A stretch of 49,359 nt of DNA from a virus, in the IMG/VR virus record IMGVR_UViG_3300046690_000086, positions 1 to 49,359 of that record; one strand, written 5' to 3'. The stretch's first letter is position 1. Each line of letters starts with the position of its first letter. The notes under the pieces are model-generated. The model ran no database searches. It saw only the letters and a program-made list of their open reading frames with translations, and was not told the origin of the DNA. The translations under genes and the position numbers were made by a program. This document shows positions 1-49,359 of this stretch, in pieces.

Positions 1-348
1 TGAGCAGATGAATGCGACGGACTTCGTTATGACTCTCCCGCCCGGCTGTGTCTGAGCTGTCCCTAACTCCTTCAGAATCCCTTGGATAGAGCTTCTCCCA
101 GAGATGATTCGAGTCCCTCCAACTCCACGGACTAACTGCTTCGCTGCTGATATCGGTGGGCCTTTCTTCAGTCCGCTCTCTGCATGGAACATGCAATAAA
201 TGTTCGGGTAGAGGTTGTAGATTTGTCGGTCTATCCATACATTATCCTTTAAAACTGCTGAGATGGAGGCTAGATATGCCCAGAACCAGAAGTTAGTTGG
301 ACTTTCAAGTTCCGAATGTTGAGATAGAAATTTTTCCACCCACGTCAT
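1..348 (-). CDS. DUF3987-like ATPase, N-terminal fragment (allele A)
   Basis: This is the first 116 codons of a gene cut by the left window edge; the frame is open to base 1. The protein is about 92% identical to residues 1-116 of the complete gene at 47190-48467, and bases 1-84 are identical to 48120-48203. The fragment includes the degenerate Walker-A-like stretch AESGLKKGPP (residues 56-65). Its ATG (348-346) overlaps the HNH stop as UAAUG. If the molecule is circular, this fragment continues directly into base 48119 and is simply the start of that gene in the allele carrying the HNH insertion; the alternative is a genuine second partial copy. Role inferred from family and neighbours: replication-linked helicase/primase-type ATPase. 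Confidence 0.8.
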   Translation of the reverse strand, partial: MTWVEKFLSQHSELESPTNFWFWAYLASISAVLKDNVWIDRQIYNLYPNIYCMFHAESGLKKGPPISAAKQLVRGVGGTRIISGRSSIQGILKELGTAQTQPGGRVITKSVAFICS

Positions 349-788
349 TACTTCTTCTTTCTATATTTTGCTGATCTTAAATTGATGCATATTCTGCAAC
401 TTCTAGTACCTTCTTTACGATAGTAGGTATTTTCTTCAGTAAATTCATGCCCATTTTTACAATAAATTCTAACTATGTCTGCATTATTTTCCTTAGCTGT
501 ACCTACATAGAGATGTTCAGGATTCCAACATGCTCTACTCGGACATTCGGGCTTATGATTTGCTTGTAGTGAATCACTTAGTTCTAAAAAGAATATAGCA
601 GATAATCTATGGCAATTATACATTCTTCCATCATGCCATATTTGACCGTATCCCTCATTATTTAGTGAACCCTTCCATATTAAACAGTCGTTATTCCACA
701 ATGACTTCTGAAACATCCTCTCCAATAACTGTTTCCTCTCGCTTTCTATATTTTCGTAAGTCTTTATAATTGTCTCCGATCTCGACAT
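348..788 (-). CDS. HNH homing-type endonuclease
   Basis: HNH_3-type nuclease. Seen: an N-terminal CLIWKG motif, GYGQIW, NCHRLSAIF (first His), ANHKPECPSRACWNPEHL (catalytic NHK and the distal N-x-x-H), then a C-terminal zinc-like segment (CKNGHEFTEENTYY ... CRIC) common in phage HNH enzymes. Family role: site-specific DNA nicking or cutting that spreads the gene into alleles lacking it. It sits exactly between polymerase and the DUF3987-like gene, overlaps the polymerase 3' end out of frame, and its stop forms the same UAAUG that polymerase forms in allele B. The start is uncertain: ATG at 788 (146 aa) is used here; TTG 725 and ATG 716 (122 aa, SD GGAG 3 nt upstream) are alternatives. The first residues are read from polymerase-derived sequence, so they may not be native. 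Confidence 0.85.
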   Translation of the reverse strand: MSRSETIIKTYENIESERKQLLERMFQKSLWNNDCLIWKGSLNNEGYGQIWHDGRMYNCHRLSAIFFLELSDSLQANHKPECPSRACWNPEHLYVGTAKENNADIVRIYCKNGHEFTEENTYYRKEGTRSCRICINLRSAKYRKKK

Positions 789-3201
789 CGCAAGGTAGCT
801 TAAGAAGTCTACGGGGTAAGGAGCAGGTGTGGAAATCAATAGGTCTCTCCATTTCTTTTTTAGCCATTTCTACAAAGTCATCTAAATATTCTCTTCTCAC
901 ACTAAACAAAAGGGAATCATGGGCTTCGAGAATAATCTTTGCCCCAGGAAATTTCTTTTTAATTCTTATCCCCGCCGCTTTAGTGTTATCGGTTACAGCT
1001 CTCTGTGGAAGATACGCAAGAGCTTCTCTTTCAAGATCAGGCCCCATACGTTCGTAGAAGATGCGCACTCCACCATGAGGTGCATCTATTCCCCACGGTT
1101 TTGGCGCCACCAATCTTCTTTTACTTTTAATGGCTTCAATGACTTCAAAATGGAAGACTTTCTGGATGAGAGGCTGTCTTGTATGAAATATCTTAAGAGC
1201 ACGCTCTGCTTGAGCTTCTGTAATAGTAAGAGGAATTTTGAATTTGCGTGCTTGAGTGTTGACCTCTGTTGCTGCTCTCCTTTTTGAAGCACCAAGGTGT
1301 GCGGCGTGTCTGAGCGTCTTACCCGCGAATCTAATGGGACTTTCATATCCGAGTATTTTCTTTGAATAGTCATCTTCTACTCCTCCAAAGAACCATGATG
1401 CTGTCAATGCATGAAAATCATGTGTATCTATGTCCTCTAGTGCTTGTTCATCTGTAGCTAAGTTGAATATTACTCTCGCTTCGGCTTGAGATGAGTCCAG
1501 CTGGACGAAGACTTCTCCCTCATCAGGCTCATACATTCCTCGCACGTCCGACCCTATGTCTCCGTGCTTAGTGAAGACTTGGAACGCACAGCCCATAGGC
1601 TTCATGTCTACCTTACGTCCCTTTCCCTTGATGTCTACCAAGGGACGGATGGGAGGATCTTGCTGCCCTGTGGACGTGCGACCTGTCTCAAGACACATGA
1701 AGCAGGTAGTCCGCATCTTTCCATCGTAGTCTGTAAGTGCGAATAAGTAGGTAGAGAGGGTCTTCCTGACGCGCCTGCGTTCTAGAGCCTTCTCTATCCA
1801 CTCCCTGTAGGGCTGATACTTAACTCCGTTCTGTAAGTTGAGAAGTGCGGTTAGCTCCTCTTCGCCCGTCCCCTTTCTTCTCGGAAGTTTCCATATGTCA
1901 AAGAGGAGATTCGACACTTTCTCAGAGGAGTTTGGATTGACATCTACTCCTGCGAGTTGGAACATCTCATATCCGAGTCTCTCATCCCACTCTACATACT
2001 TTGTGATTAATTCGGCCCTTCGGGTCTCGTTGACTCGGAATCCATTATTCTCTATCTCCAGATAGAAGTCAGGTAGAGTCATCAGAAAGTTCTCGTAGAA
2101 CTTCCGCATCCCTAGTTCATCTAAGTCAGAGTCCATCGAGTCATTTACTTCATACGTGACACAAGCATCTCGTGCGCATCCGAGCAGGAGATCTCTATAG
2201 CTCCCCTCATACATGCCTTCGTCCTTGTAGAAGGGTTCTCTCGTATAAATGCTTGTATTAAATGCAAGCCCCTTCGGGAGTTCAGGGTTAATTGCAAAGG
2301 CTTTGAGCATCGTATCCGAATGTATTCTACGTATTGCAAATCCCAGTCTTCGTATTTTGTCTCTATCGTAATTGAAGTTGTGCCCAACAATGTCCTTCTC
2401 CCATAAAACTTTGGACAACATAAGCCACATGGATGCGAGGTCGGAGTCGGGTATCGTGGATATTCCGTCGCGGTTCCACAGAGGGACTGTCATTCCATGA
2501 TGTTTATTGAACGCAAGTCCGATGCAGATAGGGAGACAGTGTCCGCCTGCTTCGATGTCTACTGAGAGAGTCAGATGATGTTTGTATCTCTCCAGAAAGC
2601 CATGGAGTTCACCTGAGTTCTGGGCTATCTGTAACGTGCGGGAGGGAAGCTGTAGGATCGGACTGACAGACTCCTCAAGTGCGCGTTTGAAGTCGAAGAT
2701 TATTACCTGTCGATTCCAATACCCCTTGATCTCGCCACCTGAAAAACTATGTAGCAAGTGCGCGGGATGATAGGTAGGGACAAACTTCGTACCCATTCCC
2801 CACATGATTGATCCTCGGTGCTTAGAAATCTTAGTCTTCCCGCTGAGTGCCCATAAAGCAGTCCCACCGAGAGCGAGAATAACGTTGGGTCGAATATCAT
2901 TAATCTCAACTTGTAGTTCCTCTAATTGTTTATCTACGTTAATCCCGCTCGCAGTCGCGCGTTGGTAGAATGATTGACGCTTGGCTCCTATGTTCGGAGG
3001 GACTTCATACTTGCATACGTTCGTGACCCAGCAGTCTGCGCGAGAAATGCCCGCATCTTTGAGGAGCCTGTCTAATTCTCGTCCTGACGCACCTACGAAC
3101 GGGCGACCTGCTAATGTTTCTTCACGCGCGGGTGATTCGCCTAGAATCATGATTTTAGATGAAACAGAGCCGACGCCTGGGACATATTTATGCTCACTCA
3201 T
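691..3201 (-). CDS. Uracil-DNA glycosylase-like / family A DNA polymerase fusion (allele A)
   Basis: Replicative polymerase, 836 aa. Residues 1-165 are a family-4/5-type UDG domain: GESPA (21-25), GRPFVG (32-37), VTNVCK (59-64), HPAHLL (145-150); the usual N-terminal Fe-S CxxC is absent. Residues 205-360 are a DnaQ-like 3'-5' exonuclease: DIE (215-217), GHNFNYD (273-279), ARDACVTYE (343-351). Residues 380-810 are PolA: motif A LDSSQAEAR (568-576), motif B R624/K628 and motif C HDS (761-763), so both metal-binding Asp are present. The O-helix has His632 and Leu636 where Phe/Tyr and Tyr are usual. A UDG-like N-terminus on PolA is known from SPO1-type phages. The C-terminal tail differs from allele B because of the HNH insertion. 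The start ATG lies 2 bp after the upstream zinc-ribbon stop. Confidence 0.95.
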   Translation of the reverse strand: MSEHKYVPGVGSVSSKIMILGESPAREETLAGRPFVGASGRELDRLLKDAGISRADCWVTNVCKYEVPPNIGAKRQSFYQRATASGINVDKQLEELQVEINDIRPNVILALGGTALWALSGKTKISKHRGSIMWGMGTKFVPTYHPAHLLHSFSGGEIKGYWNRQVIIFDFKRALEESVSPILQLPSRTLQIAQNSGELHGFLERYKHHLTLSVDIEAGGHCLPICIGLAFNKHHGMTVPLWNRDGISTIPDSDLASMWLMLSKVLWEKDIVGHNFNYDRDKIRRLGFAIRRIHSDTMLKAFAINPELPKGLAFNTSIYTREPFYKDEGMYEGSYRDLLLGCARDACVTYEVNDSMDSDLDELGMRKFYENFLMTLPDFYLEIENNGFRVNETRRAELITKYVEWDERLGYEMFQLAGVDVNPNSSEKVSNLLFDIWKLPRRKGTGEEELTALLNLQNGVKYQPYREWIEKALERRRVRKTLSTYLFALTDYDGKMRTTCFMCLETGRTSTGQQDPPIRPLVDIKGKGRKVDMKPMGCAFQVFTKHGDIGSDVRGMYEPDEGEVFVQLDSSQAEARVIFNLATDEQALEDIDTHDFHALTASWFFGGVEDDYSKKILGYESPIRFAGKTLRHAAHLGASKRRAATEVNTQARKFKIPLTITEAQAERALKIFHTRQPLIQKVFHFEVIEAIKSKRRLVAPKPWGIDAPHGGVRIFYERMGPDLEREALAYLPQRAVTDNTKAAGIRIKKKFPGAKIILEAHDSLLFSVRREYLDDFVEMAKKEMERPIDFHTCSLPRRLLKLPCDVEIGDNYKDLRKYRKREETVIGEDVSEVIVE

Positions 3202-4526: not shown

Positions 4527-5339
4527 CTAGATCTGTGTTAGAGTCTGCGGTGAGAGTTTTGTCAGTGCGATGGCAGGTTTGATGTAGGTTTCGTATATAG
4601 GTTTGTCCTTAAATACGATCTCTTTATCCAACCCAAGTTCTGTCTTCGCGAAGTCATCTCCAGTGTGTGTTGTCAACAGAGAATAGTCACCTCCACTCCC
4701 TTCTATCATTCCTGACTTGATATTGAAGTGATAGATTTCACCACAATATGCAGGAATTTTAGCAGCTATGTTCTTTCCCGCAGTCACGATCTGACGCGAG
4801 ACATGAGTAGTCTTCTTCGTCGTATCTCGGTACTCAGCTTTGATGACGTGCGCGATGATGATGACATTAATCTTGTGATGTTTCTTGATGTCTTTCGTCA
4901 GAGAGATTAACTCACCAAGAGCGCCGGACTCAGCGTTGTAGTCCTCTATTTCATTGACTGCGATTCCTGCGATCAACTTACCCGCCGCTGCACCTGAAGT
5001 GCGTGTCTTTCCATACTTCAAGTGCGTAGTCTGACGGAGGATTGCATCTGCGCACGACGTGATAGAGTCTATGACGATAGTTTTGTAGGGACAGTTAGAC
5101 TGAAGTTGTTCCAACTTGACCTTAGCCTTAGTCCAGTCATCATAGTCATCATACGAGATAGTCTTAGGATCAATGTTCCATTTACGCATAGGGATGAAGA
5201 TGGATGACATCTTCTGATCCCATGAGAACCAGTATTGAGGGCCGGGAAATGATAAGGCTTGTGTAGACTTACGTGTCCCGGGTTCCCCCTTAAAGAGACA
5301 GTAAAGAGAGTCGAAGTTAATAGAGTTCATGTCCTGCAT
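4527..5339 (-). CDS. RecA-like/AAA_24 ATPase, phage recombination-replication type
   Basis: 270 aa. Walker A GEPGTRKST at residues 18-26 and Walker B TIVIDS at 87-92, followed by a Ser/Thr-rich sensor region and a HVIKAEYRD segment. This is the phage nucleotide-binding protein family related to Sak4/RecA core ATPases, which works on ssDNA with an SSB-like partner to promote annealing or replication restart. The partner is probably the adjacent DUF669-like gene. It starts at ATG 5339, two bases after the upstream stop. No inteins or frameshifts are seen. Confidence 0.85.
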   Translation of the reverse strand: MQDMNSINFDSLYCLFKGEPGTRKSTQALSFPGPQYWFSWDQKMSSIFIPMRKWNIDPKTISYDDYDDWTKAKVKLEQLQSNCPYKTIVIDSITSCADAILRQTTHLKYGKTRTSGAAAGKLIAGIAVNEIEDYNAESGALGELISLTKDIKKHHKINVIIIAHVIKAEYRDTTKKTTHVSRQIVTAGKNIAAKIPAYCGEIYHFNIKSGMIEGSGGDYSLLTTHTGDDFAKTELGLDKEIVFKDKPIYETYIKPAIALTKLSPQTLTQI

Positions 5340-20797: not shown

Positions 20798-22381
20798 ATG
20801 AGAAATCCTAACGAGTGGAAGCCAAGTGCGCGTCAGCAAGAGTTCTTATCTATTCCTCCGTCTGTTAAAGAAGCTGCATACTTAGGTGGAGCAGGATCTG
20901 GCAAGTCTGATTTATTGTTGATGTATGGAATCGTCCACAGGTTCCATGAGAATTCGCGATTCAAACAAGTCTTTCTCAGACGTACATTTCCGGAGTTAAG
21001 GAATGAAATAGTTCCAAGAGCGCGTGAGATATACGGTAAATTTGGAGCTACCTTTAATAAAACTGAGATGATTTTTACATTCCCATCAGGTGCTCTCATA
21101 TTGTTGGGACATTGTGAAAATGAATCTGACGTAAGCAAGTATGATTCAATGGAAATAAACTTGTTTACTCCAGATGAAATAACTTCATTCACTGAGTATA
21201 TGTATCTTTACATTGGTTTCACTCGTGTTAGAAGTTCTGATCCCAAATTACCTGCCATAATTAGGACAGCAGGAATGCCCGGGGGAATAGGACATTCGTG
21301 GGTACGTAAGAGATTCGTCGAGCCTGATAAAGCGGGTGGAAAGATTCTAGTAGGTAAGGGTGGCAATAAACGAATAATGATATTTGCTACCCAAGCAGAT
21401 AATCCTTATATCGACCCGACTTACAAGAAAAGTCTTGAAGCTCTACCTGAAGCAGAGAAGAAGGCAAAGTTATACGGAGACTTTGACTCATATTTAGGTC
21501 AAGTATTTACGGAGTTTAGAAGTCATAAGATGCCGGACGAGCCAGATAATGCATTGCATGTAGTTGAACCGTTCGAGATACCAGCGTGGTGGCCTAGATT
21601 TTTAGTTGGAGACTGGGGCTTTGCAGCGATGACTTGGTTGGGCTACGTGGCCGTGAGTCCAGCTAAGCGCGTATATATTTATAGAGAACAACATTGGATT
21701 AAGACGAAGATAGCAGACTGGGCACCTCATGTAAAGCAATATATTGATAGAGAAAGTCCACGAATTATAAAATTCTGTAAGTCCGCTGCTCAGGAACGGG
21801 GACAAGAACACACTATTCAGCAACAAATTGAAGAAGAGTTAGGTCAGCAAGTTGAGCTGAGTAATAATAGTCCGGGGTCGCGCGTAGCTGGAAAGATGTT
21901 AGTTCATGAATATCTACGATGGAAACCTAAGCTGATAAACGCGACCGAGGTCGCTCTGTATAACGATGAATACGCAATGTGGATTATGAGAAATCGGGGG
22001 ATGAATGAATATAAATCTTATATGAATTCATTTAATCCACAAGAACCAGAGACAAACATACCTAAGCTTCAGATTTTTAACACCTGTTCAGTCTTGATAG
22101 ATGCAATTAATGCATGTTCGTATGATAAACCGAAAAATAACAAGCCTGCTGAAGACATAATGGAATTTGAAGGTGACGATCCGATCGATGGACTTAGATA
22201 TATTGTGGACACGGCTGAGGGATTCTTCGACGAGGCTAATCAAGAGTTCAAGAAAATCCAGTCTCAAGAAGCTCTGATTCAGAAGCTGTCGAGTAACAAT
22301 GACTGGACAGCTTTCTACAGAAATATGCGTAAGGTAGAGAGTGAAGAGACAATTAAGCCCATTACGAGATATAGACATTAA
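20798..22381 (+). CDS. terL: Terminase large subunit
   Basis: 527 aa. ATPase: Walker A GGAGSGKS at residues 30-37, Walker B NLFTPDE at 121-127 and a coupling segment after it (ITSFTEYM). The RNase-H-like nuclease starts near VGDWGFA (about 270) with later acidic residues. Role: the motor and nuclease that pumps DNA into the prohead. Unlike most podoviruses it is not next to the small subunit. The ATG lies one base after the upstream stop; the RBS is weak, suggesting translational coupling. Confidence 0.93.
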   Translation: MRNPNEWKPSARQQEFLSIPPSVKEAAYLGGAGSGKSDLLLMYGIVHRFHENSRFKQVFLRRTFPELRNEIVPRAREIYGKFGATFNKTEMIFTFPSGALILLGHCENESDVSKYDSMEINLFTPDEITSFTEYMYLYIGFTRVRSSDPKLPAIIRTAGMPGGIGHSWVRKRFVEPDKAGGKILVGKGGNKRIMIFATQADNPYIDPTYKKSLEALPEAEKKAKLYGDFDSYLGQVFTEFRSHKMPDEPDNALHVVEPFEIPAWWPRFLVGDWGFAAMTWLGYVAVSPAKRVYIYREQHWIKTKIADWAPHVKQYIDRESPRIIKFCKSAAQERGQEHTIQQQIEEELGQQVELSNNSPGSRVAGKMLVHEYLRWKPKLINATEVALYNDEYAMWIMRNRGMNEYKSYMNSFNPQEPETNIPKLQIFNTCSVLIDAINACSYDKPKNNKPAEDIMEFEGDDPIDGLRYIVDTAEGFFDEANQEFKKIQSQEALIQKLSSNNDWTAFYRNMRKVESEETIKPITRYRH

Positions 22382-46948: not shown

Positions 46949-47193
46949 TACTCTGACATCCCAATTAAAGGTTTAACAGTTCCAGTTTCTATTAGTCTAT
47001 CCATCCATTCCGTAGGACTTTTGAATATTCTTCGTCGTCCCTCGTCATGCATATTGAGTAACTCCGCATAATGTGCTTGGAGTTTTAGGGATTCTTCGAG
47101 TGCGATAACTATTTGTTTATAATTGTGCTTCAGTCTTTGTTCTTCGTCCATAAATCTCCTCCATATTGTTCCATCAGCTAACCACCAAGTCAT
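46948..47193 (-). CDS. 81-aa hypothetical protein
   Basis: Helical (DEEQRLKHNYKQIVIALEESLKL) with Trp-rich start MTWWLADGTIW. Coupled by AUGA to the DUF3987-like gene and by UAAUG to the zinc-finger gene. No motif of known function. Confidence 0.6.
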   Translation of the reverse strand: MTWWLADGTIWRRFMDEEQRLKHNYKQIVIALEESLKLQAHYAELLNMHDEGRRRIFKSPTEWMDRLIETGTVKPLIGMSE

Positions 47194-48467
47194 TTTCCCT
47201 TACCTGAGAATCTTCTTTTCAGCTCTACGACTTGTAATTCAGGCATGAGATAGATGATTTGATTCCCTATAGACTGACTCTTGATCATTCCTGCTTGATC
47301 GAAGGACAGCATTATCTCGTCTAGCTCAGAAGCCTCTCTGTAGTGCGACCACATCTGCTTGAGCAGCATAGCGCGACTGATGGAATGCGTCTCTCTCGTC
47401 AGGAGTTCTTGGATAATCAGGTTCTTAATGTTCTTCGCCTCAGAGAGTCCCTTCTTTCCATGCGTCATCTCACGGACATTTCCGACTAGCTTCTCCGAAT
47501 ATTCTATGGCTAACTGCATACTGTCTGTGTCGATGTATAGTTCTGGACTTCTGGCGAGTGCGAGCAACATAGCGACTTTCAGGACTGAATCCCCGAAGCG
47601 ATTAAGAGTCCCTGTGTCATCTTTCAAATCTTGTGTCAGGACTTGATCTATGAAGTTCTCATACCACTTCTGATAGAGTAGTCCTGCAGAAGAGAAGTAG
47701 TTAGTCTCTCCTGTGACATGCTCGACATGCGGAATCGTACACTCCTCCGTGGGTTCTTTACTCCCTAAAGGACGGAATGGGCCTTTTAGTTCTGACAGGA
47801 CTTTCAGGTAGTCGATGTGGTCCGAATATTTGGGTGGGTTATTTAAGGGAAGTAAGAGAGAGTTCGCGCGATTCCGTTTCGACTCAGAGACTATGAACGT
47901 GCGAGCAAAATAACCACCGTGTATATCTTTCTTAGCAAAGAAATCATTCGAGTGAGCTTCATTGGTCGCAGTCAACATGGTGATAGTCGGATCTTTCAGA
48001 TTGAACTGTTCCATCTTCAACAGAGAACGCCACTCCCCGATGTTGTACTGCCTGTCGTACAAGTCTGTCAGGATATCCGTCGCTACTTTATCCTCCACTA
48101 TGGAAGACGTCAGTTCGCTTGAGCAGATGAATGCGACGGACTTCGTTATGACTCTCCCGCCCGGCTGTGTCTGAGCTGTCCCTAACTCCTTCAGAATCCC
48201 TTGTATGGAAGATCGACCTGAGATAATCCTCGTGCCACCTACGCCACGTACTAATTGCTTTGCCATCGAAATAGGTGGGCCTTTCTTCAGACCCGACTCG
48301 GCGTGAAACATCACGTAGATGTTTGGGTACAAGTTGTAGATTTGTCGGTCGAGCCATATGTTATCCTTTACGACTGCTGAGATTGATGCGAGTCCACCCC
48401 AGAACCAAAAGTTAGTTGGACTTTCTAGTTCAGAGTGTTGGGAGAGTAGTTTTTCGATCCATGTCAT
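47190..48467 (-). CDS. DUF3987-like replication ATPase
   Basis: 425 aa. Phage DUF3987-like protein: a degenerate Walker A AESGLKKGPP (residues 56-65, lacking the usual GKS/T), a Walker-B-like FICSSELTSS (about 113-122), MLTATNEAHS and GGYFARTFIV segments, and a helical C-terminus. Family members are replication-linked helicase/primase-type ATPases in phages and mobile elements. It follows polymerase directly, joined as UAAUG. The first 116 codons recur at 1-348 in allele A. Confidence 0.75.
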   Translation of the reverse strand: MTWIEKLLSQHSELESPTNFWFWGGLASISAVVKDNIWLDRQIYNLYPNIYVMFHAESGLKKGPPISMAKQLVRGVGGTRIISGRSSIQGILKELGTAQTQPGGRVITKSVAFICSSELTSSIVEDKVATDILTDLYDRQYNIGEWRSLLKMEQFNLKDPTITMLTATNEAHSNDFFAKKDIHGGYFARTFIVSESKRNRANSLLLPLNNPPKYSDHIDYLKVLSELKGPFRPLGSKEPTEECTIPHVEHVTGETNYFSSAGLLYQKWYENFIDQVLTQDLKDDTGTLNRFGDSVLKVAMLLALARSPELYIDTDSMQLAIEYSEKLVGNVREMTHGKKGLSEAKNIKNLIIQELLTRETHSISRAMLLKQMWSHYREASELDEIMLSFDQAGMIKSQSIGNQIIYLMPELQVVELKRRFSGKGK

Positions 48468-49359
48468 TACACTTCCACTTCCTGAATCTGAAATTTAAAT
48501 TTCTTCAAGTCTCTGTAATTCTCTCCGACTTCTACGTCACATGGGATCTTTAATAATCTGCGAGGTAGCGAGCAGGTCTTGAAACTTATCGGGCGCTCCA
48601 TCTCTTTTTGTGCAAGTGCGACGAATTCATCTAGACAATCTCTTTTAACAGAGAAAAGAAGTGCATCATGAGCTTCGAGAATAATCTTCGCTTCAGGGAA
48701 CTGTCGTTTAATCCTAATACCTGCTGCTTTGGTATTATCAGTAACGGCGCGTTGAGGAAGATAGGCCAAGGCTTCTCTAAACAAATCATCTCCCCATCTC
48801 TCATAAAATATGCGTACACCACCTCTGTCGGAATCGATTCCCCAAGGGAGTGGTGCGATGAGTCGTCGAGTAGCTTTGATGGATTCGATGACTTCATTGT
48901 GAAATACCTTTTGAATAAGAGGCTGTTTCATATGGAAGATTTTTAAGGCTTTCTCTGCTTGAGCTTCCGTAATAGTGAGAGGAATCTTATACTTCCGCGC
49001 TTGAGTATTGAGTTCCGTGGCCGCGCGTCGTTTTCCTGCGCCAAGATGGCCCGCATGGCGTAGAGTCTTTCCTGCAAAACGTATCGGTGATTCGTATCCG
49101 AGAACCTTTTTGGAATAGTCATCTTCTACTCCTCCGAAGAACCAGCTTGCAGTTAGTGCATGATAGTCATGTTCGTCTATGTCTAGTAAGGCTTGTTCAT
49201 CTGTGGCTAAGTTAAAGACTACGCGCGCTTCGGCTTGAGATGAGTCCAGCTGGACGAAGACTTCTCCCTCATCAGGCTCATACATTCCTCGCACGTCCGA
49301 CCCTATATCTCCGTGCTTAGTGAAAACTTGGAACGCACAGCCCATAGGCTTCATGTCTA
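48120..49359. repeat. Diverged duplicate of 1-1608 (terminal overlap/allele)
   Basis: Bases 48120-48203 equal 1-84 exactly; the last about 120 bases match 1488-1608 with two visible changes. Between them the copies are diverged homologues of the same genes, except for the HNH gene present only in the first copy. This indicates an unjoined circular or permuted contig with two strain versions, or much less likely a real tandem duplication. Confidence 0.85.
48467..49359 (-). CDS. PolA C-terminal part (allele B), cut by the right edge
   Basis: The last 297 residues of a UDG/PolA fusion like the one at 691-3201, about 80% identical; the frame is open to base 49359. It includes motif A (LDSSQAEAR), motif B with R/K and the same unusual His and Leu (RHAGHLG), and motif C HDALLF. 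The tail ends in EVEV, shorter than allele A, and its stop overlaps the DUF3987-like ATG as UAAUG without an HNH gene. Probably the HNH-free allele of the same locus rather than a second gene. Confidence 0.8.
   Translation of the reverse strand, partial: DMKPMGCAFQVFTKHGDIGSDVRGMYEPDEGEVFVQLDSSQAEARVVFNLATDEQALLDIDEHDYHALTASWFFGGVEDDYSKKVLGYESPIRFAGKTLRHAGHLGAGKRRAATELNTQARKYKIPLTITEAQAEKALKIFHMKQPLIQKVFHNEVIESIKATRRLIAPLPWGIDSDRGGVRIFYERWGDDLFREALAYLPQRAVTDNTKAAGIRIKRQFPEAKIILEAHDALLFSVKRDCLDEFVALAQKEMERPISFKTCSLPRRLLKIPCDVEVGENYRDLKKFKFQIQEVEV

Follow-up and report, generated by a model that had tools for sequence, protein, structure and literature searches.

I-HmuI and I-HmuII are intron-encoded HNH enzymes located in the polymerase genes of SPO1 and SP82. 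In T4-like phages, free-standing HNH homing endonucleases (mobA, mobE) and the seg genes spread by intronless homing with marker exclusion (PMC2988022). The endonuclease adjoins an essential conserved gene, and localized gene conversion carries flanking markers along; polymerase genes are among the targets, and in phage 25, for instance, seg43 is found close to gene 43 (PMC2988022). I-HmuI, I-HmuII and marker exclusion are mentioned in the same publication (PMC2988022). In lactococcal Skunavirus, I-HmuI-like HNH genes are found at variable places, many of them in the replication module, and cluster by insertion place (PMC12724721). Nuclease genes have also been associated with the boundaries of genetic exchange between related phages (PMC10448857).

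The locus described here lies in a viral sequence of 49,359 bp, IMG/VR record IMGVR_UViG_3300046690_000086, the whole of which was analysed and is referred to as the window. As with the mob and seg genes of T4-like phages, a small endonuclease gene either separates conserved essential genes of replication or metabolism or follows on the end of one, its presence varies between relatives, and flanking sequence appears to be replaced along with it (co-conversion). The phage group is unrelated, however, likeness in sequence is seen only for the HNH core, and the activity of the window's enzyme is a predicted one. Several recurrent insertion places outside introns, variable between close relatives, are shared with Skunavirus, but the HNHs at the junction studied here are intermixed with those from other places in a weakly supported tree. 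I-HmuI and I-HmuII are similar in having a phage DNA polymerase as host and target gene and in the exclusion of a rival's flanking markers; unlike them, the HNH of the window is not accompanied by an intron. The nucleases of PMC10448857 are found at the edges of larger islands, whereas here a single HNH gene is contained in a patch of about 1 kb. Closest in sequence are phrog_826 and HNHs of actinophages, e.g. gp66 of Mycobacterium phage Plumbus, but these come from different phages and show 31-40% identity. The exchange at this recurrent HNH site is real and well supported; the kind of element and the mechanism are already known.

Two versions of the polymerase-primase junction in one record

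Self-alignment of the record revealed that its two ends overlap. Since long records of relatives mostly comprise 44-48 kb, the window amounts to roughly one genome length and, in addition, an assembly or strain bubble that holds a second version of one place. The version at the left end is designated allele A, the one at the right end allele B (Table 1). The first-pass annotation had placed an HNH gene between the polymerase and the DUF3987-like gene of allele A only, with a UAAUG start preserved for the gene that follows, and alignment of the two junctions confirmed the gene, its coordinates and both joints. In allele B, the polymerase stop adjoins the start of the primase-like gene directly (48467). 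Identity between A and B is 75-81% over the tract as a whole, about 75-81% at 85-351 and about 75% at 758-1476. Besides the HNH gene, the tract comprises 264 bp of the primase-like gene and about 690 bp of the polymerase gene. The term seamless insertion used earlier is therefore inexact; by the mismatch map, the alleles differ by an exchanged tract of 1.4 kb and not by a clean insert into one sequence. The flank of allele B on the polymerase side is visible for 134 bp only, where the contig stops.

Table 1. Features of the two alleles of the junction in the window
Feature	Position	Strand	Basis
Left bubble edge	1..84		exact match to 48120-48203
Right bubble edge	1477..1610		49226-49359 with 2 mismatches (mismatch map)
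Divergent (putatively converted) tract of allele A, HNH gene inside	85..1476 (1392 bp)		mismatch map; 100% identical in L001
Counterpart tract of allele B, empty site	48204..49225 (1022 bp)		mismatch map
DUF3987/DNA-primase-like gene, 5' part, allele A	1..348 (ATG 348)	-	alignment to allele B gene
DUF3987/DNA-primase-like gene, complete, allele B side	47190..48467	-	phrog_14296 (DNA primase) 1.4e-17; PF13148 8.5e-5, under cut-off
HNH endonuclease gene, allele A only	348..788 (ATG 788, stop 348-350)	-	phrog_826 'HNH endonuclease' E 3.7e-27; 146 aa
UDG-PolA fusion DNA polymerase, allele A	691..3201	-	PF03167 5.5e-24; PF00476 3.2e-23
Polymerase gene, 3' part, allele B, without HNH behind	48467..49359	-	A/B alignment
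UAAUG, HNH stop/primase-like start, allele A	346..350	-	sequence
UAAUG, polymerase stop/primase-like start, allele B	48465..48469	-	sequence

The two states occupy opposite ends of a single linear record and have edges of 84 and 134 bp in common, as is typical of a strain bubble; such an arrangement could indicate an assembly chimera in which the alleles stem from unrelated phages and do not form an occupied/empty pair in one population. A separate record, IMGVR 3300046459_000079 (loci L001, L081 and L140), makes this very improbable. It contains polymerase, HNH and primase-like gene on one continuous contig, and the occupied allele A is real. On the polymerase side of allele A, 10 mismatches to the window were counted in 8201 bp; on the primase side of allele B beyond the patch, there were 6 in about 5.9 kb, all of them within one 12-bp cluster at 48096-48107. 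Outside the patch, identity to the window is 99.9%, which on the allele B side extends over about 6 kb, while the primase part inside the patch differs from allele B at 65 of 264 bp. Allele A is thus also found on a backbone almost the same as that of the B genome; the two alleles have this backbone in common, on the primase side at the least, and a chimeric assembly is largely refuted. Two small clusters of mismatches to this record are located outside the main tract, 7 in 40 bp (1990-2029) and the 6 in 12 bp mentioned above.

As to which allele was imported, the best outside DNA matches of the A tract reach 71% in the polymerase part and 76% in the primase part, those of the B tract 76-77% and 81%, respectively. 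In a protein tree of the polymerase part, the terminal branch of A is longer than that of B (0.40 versus 0.14), with placement otherwise unresolved. The GC content is 33.9% for the HNH gene, 42.2% for the polymerase tract of A and 46.5% for the genome. The A tract is an outlier to all relatives, which favours its import, but fast evolution instead of import could also produce the long A branch.

The HNH gene and its predicted product

The HNH gene is intact, and both flanking ORFs, polymerase and primase-like, are uninterrupted. It constitutes a gene of its own outside any intron or intein; an Rfam search of the window yielded no match to a group I intron or another structured RNA. A second HNH gene was not found in the window. 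The start codon is unsettled. The longest form beginning with ATG is initiated at 788, where a Shine-Dalgarno sequence is missing, and overlaps the polymerase gene by 98 nt. Starting from TTG 725, which is preceded by the Shine-Dalgarno-like site GAGAGG 9 bases upstream, the overlap would be 35 nt. Several relatives have GGAG-type sites near their ATG.

An alignment of 25 rows revealed the motif NHK..C...CWNPEHL(Y) common to the relatives. The residues H78, N89 and H92 as well as C82 and C87, the core of an HNH/His-Me nuclease, are conserved in 25 relatives, and a C-terminal element, C..GH......N...C..C, is present in most of them. The AlphaFold model of the protein is confident (pLDDT 92), and HNH families other than phrog_826 are also matched. 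Searching PDB chains with a profile of the 25 relatives gave no hit at E <= 0.1, and thus no tie in sequence to I-HmuI or another solved HNH homing enzyme. The match to PF05551 (zf-His_Me_endon, I-PpoI-like His-Cys box; E 0.0024) remained with 18.5 bits below the cut-off of 27. An HNH-like ORF at L156:1089-2327 harbors several tandem copies of C..GH......C..C, of which the HNH of the window has one.

The junction in related phages

Around relatives of the polymerase and of the primase-like gene, 139 loci were gathered, to which HNH relatives were added. A close group, defined by roughly 70% or more amino acid identity of the polymerase, contains 58 distinct junction sequences. Forty-six of these, allele B included, are empty, seven harbor an HNH gene (allele A/L001, L036, L094-96, L146, L030/31, L129, and L091, in which the contig ends inside the gene), and five other small ORFs (L026, L009, L022, L013, L018). 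HNH genes are also located at the same junction in more distant phages (L141, L145, L154, L167). Compared with one another, the ten aligned junction HNHs are 33-63% identical, and in the HNH tree, which is weakly supported overall and poorly resolved, the label "junction" requires 6-7 changes. The HNH gene is not fixed at the junction, which HNH genes appear to have invaded more than once. Among phage isolates, the closest polymerase is about 25% identical to that of the window. A host search in bacterial genomes yielded a single remote match of 23% on a Leptospirales MAG contig, which is uninformative.

These counts bear on the idea that the HNH is a fixed functional gene, e.g. in packaging, which was deleted from allele B. 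The copy in A is intact, and two alleles alone would be compatible with loss, but the gene is far from the terminase (20798-22381), it is missing from most close junctions, and the junction HNHs do not form one clade, as judged from the label changes in the weakly supported tree. A fixed gene is thus scarcely credible; carriage of the HNH by all relatives had been named beforehand as the finding that would speak against mobility, and this was not observed. A packaging HNH of the GVE2 or HK97 gp74 type was likewise rejected, being expected beside terminase or portal and not absent from most relatives.

The UAAUG joint had been regarded as a feature of the insertion. In the close group it is present in five of seven HNH-bearing junctions (that of allele A is also seen in L001, L036, L146, L030, and L091), but also in six of the 46 empty ones (Fisher p = 0.003, with the test picked after the data had been seen). 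It therefore seems to be somewhat tied to the presence of an HNH gene without being specific to it.

Junctions of distant relatives (L044, L045, L051, L056-L058, L072, and others) contain families of small conserved ORFs of about 60-90 aa. Since these are mostly missing from the close group, its "empty" state may be derived. Many contigs (L004, L016, L021, L024, L026, L146, L154, and others) stop no more than a few hundred bases past the start of the primase-like gene. Strain variation breaking the assemblies could cause these ends, but conserved sequence alone could also cause them to cluster.

A second informative pair is formed by L149 (IMGVR 3300011405_000006) and L146 (3300023263_000028). 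Over about 4.4 kb they differ by 0-6 positions per 200 bp; this is followed by a divergent tract of about 1 kb (4584-5585 in L149 coordinates), after which identity is resumed; an identical island is located inside the tract at about 4885-4994. In this tract, two different HNH genes, 44% identical, begin at the same base after the polymerase stop, a pattern indicating that one HNH replaced another together with flanking DNA. In the HNH tree, the gene of L094, which equals that of L149, groups with the one of L030, and the gene of L146 with the one of L036, with weak to moderate support. Because the HNHs of this pair group with those of other phages, they appear to move between phages. In L129, a polymerase ending in ENYKDFVKYKIGGKNAP and a stop codon precedes the HNH, and GENYKDFEKYKKL with its stop codon, a second copy of the polymerase end, follows directly after the HNH stop. 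In the simplest reading, the insert brought its own polymerase 3' end and displaced the old one downstream.

Probable homing and the polymerase tail

Taken together, the gene at 348-788 is probably a free-standing (intronless) HNH homing endonuclease which, with co-conversion, recurrently invades one hot spot. Occupied and empty versions of one site exist in close relatives, both as alleles A and B and across the close group, and sharp local divergent tracts, for which we infer co-conversion as the cause, are found in two pairs. When both types of phage infect one cell, the enzyme would cleave or nick the allele that lacks the HNH, either in the end of the polymerase gene or in the start of the primase-like gene, both of which are conserved. 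Repair templated by the HNH-bearing genome would then copy the gene and flanking DNA, leaving a donor patch (264 bp of primase, HNH, about 690 bp of polymerase) in an otherwise unchanged genome. This patch would include the C-terminal tail of the donor polymerase and the translational joint with the gene that follows. Cleavage, its site, the direction from donor to recipient, and biased inheritance are what we infer from these patterns. Homing-type mobility, as proposed in the first-pass annotation, is the best reading, with a patch confined around the gene, but "direct evidence" is too strong a term, since both states in one assembly show polymorphism and not cleavage or drive; the evidence is strong but circumstantial.

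The 1.4-kb segment might instead have been moved by ordinary homologous recombination between co-occurring strains, with the HNH as a mere passenger and the enzyme uninvolved. Among the gene products of the genome are a Sak4-like annealing protein and an exonuclease-like one, so that promiscuous recombination is expected, and pairs lacking an HNH also differ from each other: in L119 and L121, a stretch of about 0.3 kb covering the polymerase 3' end, located at a contig end, contains 25 mismatches, and the differences in L100/L101 and L003/L004 are scattered. Because of the small divergent patch in L119/L121, exchange at the polymerase 3' end may not need an enzyme. However, in both informative pairs the HNH is contained in the sole large divergent tract of the kilobases compared, and at least ten divergent HNHs reside at the same junction, though within the close group most of the polymerases share 72-80% identity with the one in the window. 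Recombination without participation of the enzyme is thus considered unlikely, and homing is the preferred explanation.

An uncultivated phage group here provides natural allele pairs, both occupied/empty and HNH-A/HNH-B, in which conversion tracts can be read, reminiscent of T4/T2 marker exclusion. The polymerase-primase junction emerges as a recurrent site of invasion, and exchange there rewrites the polymerase tail as well. The tail of allele A is RKREETVIGEDVSEVIVE, encoded in the overlap with the HNH ORF, that of allele B KFQIQEVEV, and the last 18 codons or so differ. A rebuilt polymerase C-terminus, as claimed initially, is supported in kind by this difference, by the hypervariable tail across the whole group and by the displaced stump in L129. 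A quite doubtful extension would be that homing drives a linked block, in which the hypervariable C-terminal tail of the polymerase and the N-terminus of the primase are swapped together in each conversion. If true, homing would be the force reshuffling replisome contact peptides, TEQF-type motifs and SSB-like DDDIPF tips, between phages.

Two recurrent sequences were noticed in the tails. In most polymerases of close relatives, (K)SITEQF.V.E forms the end of the variable tail or lies ahead of it; this motif is absent from both alleles of the window and from other short-tailed polymerases. The second resembles the C-terminal tip of bacterial SSB (DDDIPF/EDIPF), which neither allele of the window possesses, and the four listed hits of a literature search included no report of an SSB-like polymerase tail. 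Within the collected loci, the tip (27 distinct sequences) was seen to terminate only the polymerase or a small junction gene and no other ORF. It is located on the polymerase C-terminus in L006, L007, L010, L012, L014, L024, L025, L034, L079, L088, L097, L100-L103, L119, L121, and L139, and on the small gene between polymerase and primase in L013, L018, L044, L045, L057, L058, L067, L072, L076, L078, L080, L129, and L154. By mimicking SSB, the tip may serve to recruit replication proteins.
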